DNA from: Colwellia sp. 20A7
GTDB taxonomy: Bacteria > Pseudomonadota > Gammaproteobacteria > Enterobacterales > Alteromonadaceae
Direction of reading: 5' to 3'
Length of the DNA stretch: 64,000 nucleotides
Assembly (NCBI RefSeq): GCF_009832865.1
Contig: NZ_CP047130.1
Span: 1,426,001-1,490,000, forward strand
In this document: one piece after another, positions 24,105-28,066 of the stretch
Numbering within the stretch: the first letter of the stretch is position 1
How the letters are laid out: each line of letters opens with the position of its first letter
Program-made: the position numbers and the translations under genes
The notes under the pieces: model-generated
What the model saw: only the letters and a program-made list of their open reading frames with translations
What the model was told of the DNA's origin: nothing
Database searches by the model: none

Positions 24105-24160
24105 TGCTTTAATTTAATAACTCTACCAATATGATTATCTAAATTATGGAGTGATTTGAT

Positions 24161-25824
24161 ATGAAAGAAAAATTGAGTTTAACTGGTCCAAGAAACTAGA
24201 AATTACAGATATAAAGGATCAAGATGTAGTAATTGAAACATTTCCTGCTGATAAACTTGAACGGTCTAAATATGCTAAATTTTTAACTCAATACTTAATA
24301 TCTTCTTCATATGATGAATCAAAATTAGCCGACTTAAATTATGTTTTAAACCTTAATTCTGAATGGGGATCTGGCAAATCTTATTTTTTACGCAGGTGGG
24401 CTCATGATCTAAAAAGTAATCATCCTGTGGTGTATATCGATGCTTGGAAACAAGACTATTCAGAAGATCCTTTGATGACAGTTATCTCTTCTTTGATCAG
24501 TCAATTAAGAGAGCAAGCAGGCATTGATCAAAATAGTATTAAGATTAAAGCTCCTAAGAAATTAATTGGTTTATTAAAAGCGGCAGCACCTAGCTTAGCT
24601 AGAGGGCTAAGTAAGCGATATCTTGGTATTGATCCAGTTAAGATTATGGAGTCTGATGAAGGCGAAACTATTGGTGATGTAGACGTTGAAAATGGGAACC
24701 CAATTGATATGGGGGTGGCGGCATCCAAGATTGTTGAGCAACTTATTAATGAACATGATTCAAAAGCTGTTGCCATAAATAATTTAAAGCTTAATGTTAA
24801 AAAATGGATTGAATTAGTGGTTCAAAAGAAGAGTTTATCTAAACCTGCATTTATTTTTATTGATGAGTTAGATCGTTGTAGACCAAGTTATGCTGTTGAA
24901 ATGCTTGAAACTATAAAGCATATCTTTGATATTCCTGGAGTAGTATTTGTCGTTGCTACAGATACAGAGCAACTACAACACGCCGTTAAGGCTATTTATG
25001 GGATTGGTTTTGATGCAAGAGTTTATCTTTCAAGGTTTTTTAATAGTCGCTTTAGTCTTAAAGCGCCAAACTTAGAAAACCTGTTGGAAGTACATTGTGA
25101 TATTCAAAAGTTATCAAAAGAATATTTTGATAAACTGAATATCCTTGTATGGCCTGTCAATGATGGTTATTCACTAACTCTTGATAATATCACCGCTGTA
25201 TTAAACGCTTTTAAGTTATCACCTAGATCTGCTATTCAAATTACTGAACGAATAATTGCAACACTTTCAAACCTTAATCAGAATGCAAAAATTGATCTCA
25301 TTATGTTAACAACCCTATTATGTATTCGAGAAAAAGAAGAATCTTTATACGAAGAAATTATAACTAAAAAGTTTAAAAGAGAAGAAAGTGGGATGAATTT
25401 AGTTTTGAATAAATATTTGAGTAATAATTTTAGTATAGAGCAAGAAAATATTAAAATTAATATTTCTATTTCTGAGTTCACAGCTCATTTCGATAATAAC
25501 AATTCTCGTTTTTTGAAAGATGGAATACATATTGTTGATTATAATTATTATTTATCTAATATTTTCACTGTTTTTTTGAACAAAAAATTTACCACCTTTA
25601 AGGGGACATCGACTAATGGAGTAGGTAAAATTTCATCTATTTTACAGACTAGAGACAAGTTACAGGCATTGAACAATAATGAAACTATAAACTTTAATGG
25701 GATAAGTGCGCAATTATGGATTCAATATTCTTACCTATATAAAAATTTATATGAGGTAGATATTGGCTTTTATCAAGACCTAGTTGAATTAGCCTCTTCA
25801 ATTGATTGGTTAAGTGAAGAATAG
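24161..25824 (+). pseudogene. KAP-family P-loop NTPase with a one-base frameshift at codon 4-5
   Basis: A frame from about 24172 to 25824 encodes a complete KAP ATPase: Walker A in NSEWGSGKSYFLRRW (24358 on), then VYIDAWKQDYSEDPL, and Walker B PAFIFIDELDRCRPSYAVEM (24847 on) followed by VVFVVATDTEQL. No ATG, GTG or TTG lies in that frame before Walker A. The ATG at 24161 has GGAG 9 bases upstream but is out of frame and stops at 24199. Adding one A to the A-run at 24168-24172 joins them as MKEKIEFNWSKKLEI. So a single base is missing, by mutation, sequencing error or slippage control. No membrane insert is apparent between the Walker motifs. KAP proteins include the phage-exclusion protein PifA. 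A GTG at 24427 would lose Walker A. Confidence 0.82.
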
Positions 25825-25826
25825 AA

Positions 25827-25850
25827 AATAAAAGGGCTCGGTGACACTTG
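25827..25850 (+). repeat. 24-bp direct repeat, left copy
   Basis: AATAAA followed by AGGGCTCGGTGACACTTG. It recurs at 27609-27632 in the same orientation with one mismatch (C to G). The two copies bracket the DUF3307 and SatD genes. From memory, similar GGGGTCGGTGACACTT strings occur near REP-associated transposases in marine gammaproteobacteria; no such transposase is in this window. Confidence 0.8.
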
Positions 25851-25925: not shown

Positions 25926-26678
25926 TTATTTTATTTTTACATCCAAACCCAGCGAAATTATGGTCCCTAATAGTGTTGTGATTACTACCGACACTAAAGA
26001 TCCTATTAGCACATACTCAGTCATACTTCGATCGTCTGACTTATTCAGTTCACCAAATCTAAATATTGATTTAGCTGCCAATACAAAGCCTACTGCTGCA
26101 TAGCTCCCAACTAGTGTAAAGGTAAGTATTAGCACTCGCTCTAAATAACCGATCAGCTTACCACCAGCCACAAGGCCACTAGCATTATTATTTGTATCTG
26201 AAATTGGATATTTCTTCAAAATGCTACTAATCACAACGGAAGTTGGCTTAAGAATAAGTAAATAAGCAAAGACAATCATTACAGCATCAGAGAATTGATC
26301 ATGCTTAAGAGCTGTCTCAATTGTTAAACCGTCTACCATATGAAATGAAATGGCCGCTAGCACTGATACATTTAAAGCCTGATCAATAAAAAAATAGAAA
26401 AGCTTATTACCGTTTGGTGTTGATACCTTCCATAGGTCGATAAAAAAATGACTTATTGCTACTACAGCTATCAAGAAAACTGTCGACTGCCAGCCAATGC
26501 CCAACACTATCGCTGGAACTAATAGTGCGATTCCGTGTAATAGTGAATGAAAGTATAGTTCAGGTGAACGGTAAGTGTTTTTTTGCTTTGCTTTCACCCA
26601 TTCTTTCGGTTGTAGATAAAAGTCACAGAGGATGTGTATAAGCAAGAACGGTATTAGAGTACCAAAAAAATCAAACAT
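25926..26678 (-). CDS. DUF3307 integral membrane protein
   Basis: 250 residues with about six to seven membrane helices. DUF3307 hallmarks are conserved His and Asp residues at or in helices: LIHILCDFYLQPKEW near the N-terminus, FHSLLHGIALL, ISHFFIDLWK and FFIDQALN. These could form a metal site within the membrane, as in some membrane-bound hydrolases, but this is inference. The start overlaps the end of the SatD gene by 8 bp, so the pair is translated together. SatD and DUF3307 proteins are, to my knowledge, often neighbours. Function is unknown; it may be a membrane effector or transporter controlled by the SatD partner. Confidence 0.85.
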   Translation of the reverse strand: MFDFFGTLIPFLLIHILCDFYLQPKEWVKAKQKNTYRSPELYFHSLLHGIALLVPAIVLGIGWQSTVFLIAVVAISHFFIDLWKVSTPNGNKLFYFFIDQALNVSVLAAISFHMVDGLTIETALKHDQFSDAVMIVFAYLLILKPTSVVISSILKKYPISDTNNNASGLVAGGKLIGYLERVLILTFTLVGSYAAVGFVLAAKSIFRFGELNKSDDRSMTEYVLIGSLVSVVITTLLGTIISLGLDVKIK

Positions 26679-27321
26679 GTTTGAGCCCTAAAACTTGGTT
26701 TATGAATCGCCAGTTTAATTCATTGATTAGTAGCCAACCTGATGCTTTAAGTGATTTACTAGCCGTCGCATCAGCAACATCAAGCTTTTTTGATAATTCG
26801 CTTATTGATAAACCGTCATTGGTTTTAAGCATTGGAAGCATAACTTCACATTGGCGTGAAGTTAACTCGGTTAGTTGTCTATCTAAATATTTAAACAATA
26901 AGTCAAAATTATTAGATAGTTCTAAGCGATCAGAGTTAAAAATTAATCTATCATTTTTCAACTTTTTTAATCCTCGACCGGAAAGAACAAATGCCTCACC
27001 CATCGATTCAGACACCGACTCACGTAGATCTGCATTTGAAGCAATAGCAAAGCTAATGCGACTATCAAATGGTTTACCTAGCGCCTTAATAGCAATTCGA
27101 TAGATGATAGAGTATCTGAGAGCATTTTCAATATCATGCACTACGGTCTGAAACTCATCACCACGCTCAATACTATGTACATTTGATAAACTACCTTCGG
27201 TGATCAAATGTTGAATATCCTTGATCCGTATTAGTAGTTGTTCAAATTGTTCAGAGGTTAGCTTAGTTGAGTTAATAACATCGCCACTGATTACTGCAAT
27301 AGGTTTATAAGTAGATTTCAC
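26671..27321 (-). CDS. SatD-family protein: cyclase-like domain plus C-terminal helix-turn-helix
   Basis: 216 residues. The first ~145 match the SatD family and, by eye, the motif order of class III nucleotide cyclases: ISGDVINSTKL (first metal Asp position), IERGDEFQTVV (second metal Asp position), SRISFAIA, and SMGEAFVLSGRGLKKL (like the G-x-aVN-x-AaRL motif). The C-terminal ~65 residues are a winged helix-turn-helix (TSRQCEVMLPML, LSISELSKKLDVADATASKSLKASG). So it may both make or sense a nucleotide and bind DNA. SatD is named from a Streptococcus acid-tolerance operon; biochemical role unknown. First gene of the two-gene operon with DUF3307. Four palindromes lie directly upstream and are likely its operators. 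Confidence 0.82.
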   Translation of the reverse strand: MKSTYKPIAVISGDVINSTKLTSEQFEQLLIRIKDIQHLITEGSLSNVHSIERGDEFQTVVHDIENALRYSIIYRIAIKALGKPFDSRISFAIASNADLRESVSESMGEAFVLSGRGLKKLKNDRLIFNSDRLELSNNFDLLFKYLDRQLTELTSRQCEVMLPMLKTNDGLSISELSKKLDVADATASKSLKASGWLLINELNWRFINQVLGLKHV

Positions 27322-27353
27322 ATTAAAATTCCTTGCTACGCATATACTCTAAT

Positions 27354-27455
27354 TTAGCCGTTTTTGGCTAATAACGCAAATTTAGCCGTTTTTGGCTAAT
27401 AACGTCAATTTAGCCATTTTTGGCTAATAACGCCGATTTAGTCGTTTTTGGCTAA
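27354..27455 (-). repeat. Four 18-bp palindromes at an exact 28-bp period (operator array)
   Basis: TTAGCCGTTTTTGGCTAA at 27354-27371 and 27382-27399; TTAGCCATTTTTGGCTAA at 27410-27427; TTAGTCGTTTTTGGCTAA at 27438-27455. Arms TTAGCC / GGCTAA with a 6-base centre, separated by 10-base spacers of the form TAACGxxxAT. The nearest copy is 33 bases from the SatD start codon. On the minus strand TTGACG and TAAATT, 18 bases apart, flank a palindrome, so promoters may be embedded in the array. Most simply read as an autoregulatory operator array bound by the SatD helix-turn-helix. Confidence 0.85.
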
Positions 27456-27608: not shown

Positions 27609-27632
27609 AATAAAAGGGGTCGGTGACACTTG
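27609..27632 (+). repeat. 24-bp direct repeat, right copy
   Basis: AATAAA followed by AGGGGTCGGTGACACTTG; 23 of 24 bases match the copy at 25827-25850. With that copy it encloses a 1.76-kb segment carrying exactly the SatD-DUF3307 operon and its operator array. Confidence 0.8.
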
Positions 27633-27721: not shown

Positions 27722-28066
27722 CTATTTCTTTTTCGGTGTTGGCCAAACAAAGGGAGCGTTCTTGCTGGTATCAGGCTTTTTAGAAGTCGTTTGTGCCACT
27801 TTATTATCTTGCGCGAGTATCGCTCTGATTATTTTCCCGGTTTCTTTATGCTTACTACAAAATGTTTTTAGGTATAAAATTTCCACTCTACTGCGCGCCC
27901 ACGGGGTTGTACGCAGAAATTTTAAACTTGATTTAAGACGCGGTTTATTCATAAAACAACGAATATTAAGTAATTCACCCATTTGTTCCCAACCAACTTT
28001 TTTTTCCAGTTCGGTTAAGATTTGTTCTAGTTTTATGCCGTATAGTGGGTCATTACTGTTATTCAT
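27722..28066 (-). CDS. VF530 family (DUF2132) DNA-binding protein
   Basis: 114 residues. The family block runs NNSNDPLYGIKLEQILTELE, GWEQMGELLNIRCF, KPRLKSSLKFLRTTPWARSRVE and YLKTF. The solved member from Vibrio fischeri is a small helical protein proposed to bind DNA. The C-terminal ~30 residues are Lys/Thr/Pro-rich and probably disordered. Single gene, no operon partner apparent. Confidence 0.88.
   Translation of the reverse strand: MNNSNDPLYGIKLEQILTELEKKVGWEQMGELLNIRCFMNKPRLKSSLKFLRTTPWARSRVEILYLKTFCSKHKETGKIIRAILAQDNKVAQTTSKKPDTSKNAPFVWPTPKKK

Follow-up and report, generated by a model that had tools for sequence, protein, structure and literature searches.

We consider it reasonably likely that SatD is a nucleotide-sensing one-component autorepressor and that the membrane protein linked to it is the dosage-critical output of a two-gene unit. 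SatD probably switches off both itself and its membrane partner through a regular row of predicted sites. The unit was analysed in a stretch of 64 000 nucleotides from Colwellia sp. 20A7 (the window), and it occurs in many bacteria and some archaea. The computed basis of our reading is the fold of SatD, the conservation of its aspartates, the pairing of the two genes and an operator array with a conserved period; the binding of SatD to DNA, the repression, the nature of its ligand and what the partner does are inferred. An earlier note on this DNA had described a cyclase-like regulator overlapping a membrane-protein gene and had likened the arrangement to cyclic-nucleotide anti-phage systems. 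That interpretation is partly supported; it had missed the palindrome array, and the feature extends to position 27455. No study of the SatD fold, the operator array or the pairing was found in the open-licence literature, from which subscription journals are mostly absent.

Organization of the satD operon

The satD gene occupies positions 26671..27321 of the window on the minus strand, where the earlier note had placed it; in the list of open reading frames it starts with GTG and encodes 216 amino acids. A likely ribosome-binding site, AAGGA, can be recognized from the sequence ahead of this GTG (27330..27334, minus strand). The partner gene, from the same list, follows at 25926..26678 (minus strand) and encodes a membrane protein of 250 amino acids. 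The 8 bp overlap previously described between the two genes is confirmed by the list (26671..26678, minus strand), and an ATG giving an 8 bp overlap is available in 40 of 45 plus-oriented loci, a count that mixes close and distant loci and contains two same-genome repeats.

On the partner side, the neighbour of the operon in the window is a KAP-family P-loop NTPase (24160-25824, plus strand; PF07693; PADLOC PDC-S20, E = 7e-67). Its open frame, Walker A included, offers no ATG, GTG or TTG before 24427, so that either its start is unusual or its N-terminus is incomplete; no relative of this NTPase was found at the other SatD loci (L009-L060). Upstream of satD, and in the same direction, lies the gene of a VF530-family DNA-binding protein (27722-28066, minus strand; PF09905). 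A direct repeat, (AATAAAAGG)G(G/C)TCGGTGACACTTG, flanks the satD operon (25835-25850 and 27617-27632, plus strand) and has only these two copies in the 4.58 Mb genome at up to two mismatches; the two copies might mark the ends of a mobile element. Among the other loci scanned (L009-L047 and L116), similar repeats were seen only at L116, a Colwellia C2M11 locus with three similar copies around a decayed copy of the unit. This relic lies near gcvP (about 8980-9160 of L116; G014:C12:105979 onward) and retains two operator sites that run straight into the 3' end of the DUF3307 gene, most of the operon being missing; an intact satD unit is located about 7.8 kb from it.

SatD joins a cyclase-like palm to a helix-turn-helix

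Residues 8-130 of SatD form a cyclase-like palm containing the metal-site residues D14 and D55, plus S18, G54, Q58, R88 and G108; residues 133-214 comprise a helical linker and a helix-turn-helix (HTH) with the recognition helix at about 184-193. The palm fold, which is class III-like, was recovered by Foldseek/VIA comparison of the AlphaFold model (pLDDT 92.3, pTM 0.90), with modest TM-scores, as the earlier note had anticipated. The motifs SGDVINST, RGDEFQ, SRISFAIA and GEAFVLSGRGLKKL, formerly lined up by eye with class III nucleotide cyclases, are all found in the protein, and profile comparison with hhalign matches the two Asp-bearing motifs to both class III metal aspartates. D14 is kept in 275/279 SatD sequences and D55 in 278/279, both being invariant down to about 15% identity, and G54, D55 and G108 are present in all 54 SatD representatives. 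The family signature is GDxxxS / GDEFQ / R / GxAF plus the HTH.

The SatD family (PF16264) is named for the sat operon of Streptococcus mutans. Close homologues of the window protein carry the PF16264 label (for example P0008, 88% identical to the window SatD), but the window protein itself scores below the Pfam cut-off (21.9 against 29 bits). At E ≤ 5, a PF16264 match was obtained for 34 of the 45 members of SatD alignment A3.

SatD has its palm fold in common with the class III nucleotidyl cyclases (adenylyl and guanylyl cyclases and the PycC pyrimidine cyclases), and its two metal aspartates stand at matching places. They are 41 residues apart in SatD; those of EaPycC, D102 and D146 in the excerpted text of PMC11224242, are 44 residues apart. 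Nevertheless, there are clear differences from the class III enzymes, as SatD lacks their lysine, has no conserved asparagine and carries a fused HTH. In the class III alignment A8, K52 is nearly invariant and N134 and R138 are invariant. hhalign sets this lysine on I51 of SatD, a position occupied by Ile or Leu in 49/54 representatives. The asparagine motif GDxVNxxSR falls on SatD residues of about 130-139 by hhalign or on 108-116 by the order of helices and strands; because no Asn occurs among the conserved columns of 279 SatD sequences, the class III Asn is missing in either register. An Arg is found at position 115 in 38 of the 54 representatives and at 116 in a further 12. GGDEF diguanylate cyclases also have the fold in common with SatD, but neither their signature nor their profile agrees with it: most SatD proteins read RGDEF or LGDEF, the first Gly of GG(D/E)EF being replaced by Arg or Leu, and hhalign of SatD alignment A10 gave only a weak match (E = 0.002, probability 14). 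We therefore rejected a GGDEF identity.

In the model, the DNA-binding domain at the C-terminus consists of helices only (155-166, 173-180, 184-193 and 196-214), so the label 'winged' given to the HTH in the earlier note is unsupported; the weak Pfam matches of this domain include winged HTHs alongside sigma-4/LuxR-like ones. One-component autoregulators that combine a nucleotide-binding domain with an HTH are known, such as the CARF-HTH proteins. SatD resembles them in joining a sensor derived from an enzyme-like or nucleotide-binding domain to an HTH and in the predicted regulation of its own locus. It differs from them in its cyclase-like palm sensor, its long phased operator array and its apparently single target.

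The membrane partner has a variable N-terminal part and a constant core

The partner is a multi-helix DUF3307 protein, as had been proposed: residues 8-115 match Pfam PF11750 (E = 2e-30; 105.7 bits against a cut-off of 23), and the predicted model is all helical (pLDDT 88.3). The model has no convincing match in the PDB, and DUF3307 is the sole Pfam match of the protein, which leaves no nucleotide-receptor domain among its Pfam assignments. DUF3307 accounts for the N-terminal half of the SatD partner; the C-terminal core (about 164-250), with the stretches IGYLER, AAKSIFRF and TEYVLIGSL, is common to SatD partners. In 13 aligned partners, including that of the window, K203, R207 and G226 are invariant and G173, I176, G177, E180 and L224 nearly so. 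As the aligned partners keep this core, the protein appears to be modular, with a variable N-terminal part and a constant core. The partners at the distant loci L064, L126 and L128 (127-149 amino acids) lack DUF3307 and consist mainly of the core, which suggests that the function of the partner resides there. The L125 partner is annotated at 90 amino acids, its annotated start lying inside the core. The conserved His/Asp motifs of DUF3307 pointed out in the earlier note are indeed conserved in the close family, but they are absent from several distant SatD partners.

SatD and its partner occur as a pair

In the genome scan, a DUF3307-type gene directly follows satD at all 38 complete loci. With the Pfam SatD model, which misses the window's own SatD, matches were obtained in 5/369 genomes of the class, and the partner adjoins SatD in all five. 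So as not to start from SatD only, a reciprocal search with the full-length partner was carried out in 394 genomes of the order; a full-length partner was found in 56 of them, and in 55 the gene immediately upstream encodes a full-length SatD. The remaining partner (L177) starts at a contig end, and the pairing is thus complete at 55/55 testable loci, in line with the conserved SatD-DUF3307 neighbourhood expected earlier. The DUF3307 domain alone shows no such linkage. PF11750 was found in 20 genomes of the class; SatD stands beside it in five, and the other 15 contain short DUF3307 proteins only (112-163 amino acids), which are too short for the SatD-linked C-terminal core. Short DUF3307 proteins without SatD were observed in other Gammaproteobacteria (L071-L088), and DUF3307 is also carried by phages.

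An intact SatD with a broken partner was seen in one clear case, L017 (1844-2801; Psychromonas antarctica), where the partner gene is interrupted; L171 is possibly of the same species. At L052 both satD and the partner gene are damaged.

The named close relatives of the window SatD are from Colwellia and Pseudocolwellia (80-84% identity), and a SatD match is present in 13/99 relatives' genomes, the organism's own included. Vibrio SatD proteins are about 82% identical to the window SatD, satD copies also occur on records of a plasmid collection, and the pair is found in haloarchaea and in Segatella (Bacteroidota). Owing to its patchy presence and the high identity across families, the pair probably moves between lineages.

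A predicted, phased operator array in the satD promoter

The satD promoter contains four 18 bp palindromes of the form TTAGCC-N6-GGCTAA with an exact 28 bp period (27354-27455). On the minus strand, the promoter-proximal copy 1 lies at 27354..27371, followed at 28 bp steps upstream by copy 2 (27382..27399), copy 3 (27410..27427) and copy 4 (27438..27455), the last with one mismatch. We counted sites at up to three mismatches in 39 close-family promoters (the window and 38 loci). At least three sites were present in 38 of the 39, a few of the weakest surely by chance; the exception, L010, is masked by N. The spacing between neighbours in these promoters is exactly 28 bp in 80/97 cases, and in Shewanella and Rheinheimera the sites often form two 28 bp pairs that are 44-55 bp apart.

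The period was also recovered by a motif-free score, which takes the best pair of similar 18 bp palindromes at spacings of 20-60. In the close family the best spacing falls in the 28/29 bp class, at 28 bp, in 34/38 loci and the score is at least 20 in 37/38, against 18/212 and 0/212, respectively, for 212 other upstream regions on close-family contigs. Among the distant loci, whose SatD identity falls as low as about 15%, 16/27 have their best spacing at 28/29 bp, two haloarchaea with 29 bp arrays included; for 15 of these 16 the result was matched by at most 2/60 shuffles, and L120 is not above its shuffles. The other 11 comprise L052 with its damaged genes, seven gammaproteobacterial loci (L061-L064 and L068-L070), Salinivibrio, Segatella and Arthrobacter. 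At the loci found through the partner, 51/55 have a best spacing of 28/29 bp and 41/55 a score of at least 20, compared with 68/1100 and 11/1100 in Markov shuffles of the same regions; for partner-found representatives below 70% SatD identity the spacing is 28/29 bp in 27/31. The close, distant and partner-found sets partly overlap in genomes. The site sequence differs by clade, with TTAGCC, GTAACC, GCAATC, GCAAAC, ATACGC, TCACAT and TAACCC in bacteria and ACAACC and TTCGCC in haloarchaea. Judged from these comparisons, the 28/29 bp period of the predicted sites is conserved while their sequence changes.

In 17 whole close-family genomes there are 36 exact sites, of which 32 are at satD promoters; a reversed control pattern gave seven matches in the same genomes. 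The non-promoter exact sites are singles in G000 and G476 and a pair in the decayed unit copy of Colwellia C2M11. These operator-like repeats are specific to the satD promoter in the close family with its TTAGCC-type site. The lone site in G000 (G000:C1:2978891-2978908; L005 1501-1518) is in a divergent succinate dehydrogenase/citrate synthase region and could be a chance occurrence. The recognition helix did not predict the operator beyond overall divergence (partial Mantel r = -0.04, p = 0.79; 54 loci, one of the 55 being left out for a pair score below 18), a comparison that is confounded by phylogeny and by half-site register.

From conserved positions, a putative sigma-70-like promoter overlaps operator copy 1 (27351..27379, minus strand), with a -35 element TTGCGT (27374-27379), a 17 bp spacer and a -10 element TAAATT (27351-27356), both on the minus strand. 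In the 39 aligned promoters, TTTG and AAATT are conserved around the proximal palindrome. An automatic scan did not pick this promoter and flagged 27408-27379 and one more instead, two candidates against 1.4 expected in shuffles. Should the promoter indeed lie here, SatD on its sites would stand in the way of RNA polymerase, and hence repress.

Proposed mechanism

There is one array, one target operon and one HTH protein encoded there, and SatD dimers would probably bind each 18 bp palindrome of their own promoter array. Neighbouring dimers, 28-29 bp apart, may then cooperate and cover the -35 and -10 elements, so that the operon is repressed; since this distance is about 2.7 turns of DNA, the spacing probably serves protein contacts and not a common DNA face. 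The palm of SatD would hold a metal-nucleotide ligand at the two invariant aspartates, D14 and D55, and binding or turnover of the ligand would shift the packing of the SatD dimer and thereby set the output of the operon. The membrane partner, produced by coupled translation, would be the output of the unit, acting at a low dosage that must stay low. The part of it predicted to work with SatD is the constant C-terminal core; the N-terminal part, be it DUF3307 or another, varies. Alternatively, SatD might activate the operon rather than repress it.

The nature of the output could be read differently. According to the excerpted text of PMC11323703, satD is an essential accessory gene of Streptococcus pyogenes, carried by 178/249 genomes; it alone among the accessory genes ranks in the top quarter for essentiality. 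This essentiality suggests that SatD restrains something harmful, and we tentatively entertain, as a minority reading, an addiction-like or self-killing unit in which SatD, as repressor and/or direct antitoxin, would keep a putatively toxic partner in check. Addiction-like pairs typically have overlapping genes and regulate themselves; the satD/partner overlap and the predicted autoregulation fit this pattern, and none of the 55 testable loci has a full-length partner without SatD. Against this, the same excerpts of PMC11323703 leave the gene next to S. pyogenes satD undiscussed, and a single clear case of an intact SatD with a broken partner (L017) is too few for decay asymmetry; with L052 damaged in both genes, we abandoned that argument.

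To a similarly tentative degree, the partner could have an ordinary membrane job, as an enzyme, in transport or in envelope maintenance, SatD being merely its nucleotide-sensing regulator. The occurrence of DUF3307 without SatD, as a short protein in 15/20 genomes and in phages, agrees with this, as does the potential of its His/Asp motifs to bind metal. The neighbouring gene families, too, are mostly ordinary genes (among the best 25 of 126); neighbours that recur do so mainly within Shewanella, Marinomonas or Rheinheimera, apart from a few small clusters that span genera. The patchy distribution and the variable N-terminal part are, however, unlike housekeeping, and no known fold was found for the partner.

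Rather unlikely, in our estimate, is a Pycsar-like scheme in which SatD is an active nucleotide enzyme whose signal opens or switches on the partner, the HTH only limits expression and the unit maybe serves phage defence. As in Pycsar, a cyclase-like protein is encoded beside a membrane protein, here one tied to SatD, and the class III-like fold with its invariant aspartates would suit an enzyme. The patchy distribution, the identity between the window and Vibrio proteins and the plasmid-borne copies point the same way. On plasmids, satD sometimes lies near genes that look like defence or toxin-antitoxin genes: antitoxin and nucleotidyltransferase-HEPN genes on the Agrobacterium plasmid pAt (L125), and genes for an Rpn nuclease and a subunit of a type I restriction system on a Vibrio lentus plasmid (L119). 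The KAP NTPase beside the operon in the window resembles a candidate defence family. The scheme is weakened by the Ile or Leu at the class III Lys position, by the lack of a conserved Asn and by the partner, which has no nucleotide-receptor domain by Pfam. PADLOC-DB contains Pycsar models, but neither PycTM nor PycTIR was recognized beside SatD, the partner having no PADLOC match at E ≤ 1, and SatD itself gave weak HTH-type matches only. Unlike Pycsar, the SatD unit also has an HTH and an autoregulatory array. Among the 98 neighbours scanned at 27 loci, no PADLOC family recurs more than twice (E ≤ 1e-10; best 25 of 33 families); those with two matches are helicase models, and the models matched by a single neighbour include reverse transcriptase, Cas1 and homing endonuclease. 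The unit is absent from the phage collection and, within the reach of the scan to close relatives, from viral contigs. A defence or mobile-element role thus drew no support from PADLOC (SatD, partner and 98 neighbours), the phage collection or, for close relatives, viral contigs, and the likeness to the Pycsar plan drawn in the earlier note so far extends to layout only.

A more elaborate idea, which we regard as improbable, is that the promoter array serves as a DNA scaffold for an enzyme. Dimers at 28-29 bp would put neighbouring palms face to face, and adjoining SatD dimers would form composite two-metal active sites, in the way that class III and GGDEF enzymes have composite active sites at dimer interfaces. 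A nucleotide signal for the partner would then arise only when enough SatD copies sit on their own promoter, and gene control and signal synthesis would be one device. Finally, it is very improbable that the palindromes are RNA hairpins in a leader (a thermometer, riboswitch or attenuator) rather than DNA operators, because, although a 6 bp stem is possible at each site and one site was flagged as terminator-like (one found, 0.1 expected), the array would lie outside the transcript, upstream of the proposed start site, if the promoter is right, the site sequence varies while the 28/29 bp spacing stays, Rfam gave no match at E ≤ 0.1 and SatD carries an HTH.

Implications

Returning to the nucleotide-sensing autorepressor, this reading unites two so far uncharacterised Pfam families in a single unit that is open to test and for which a fold, a ligand site, an operator and an output are predicted. 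Should it hold, the class III cyclase-like palm would join the sensor domains of one-component regulators. The operator array is unusually regular, and its period appears to be kept across many bacteria and two haloarchaea despite the changing site sequence. The unit may also offer an explanation for a published puzzle (PMC11323703), namely that among the accessory genes of Streptococcus pyogenes satD alone is essential.
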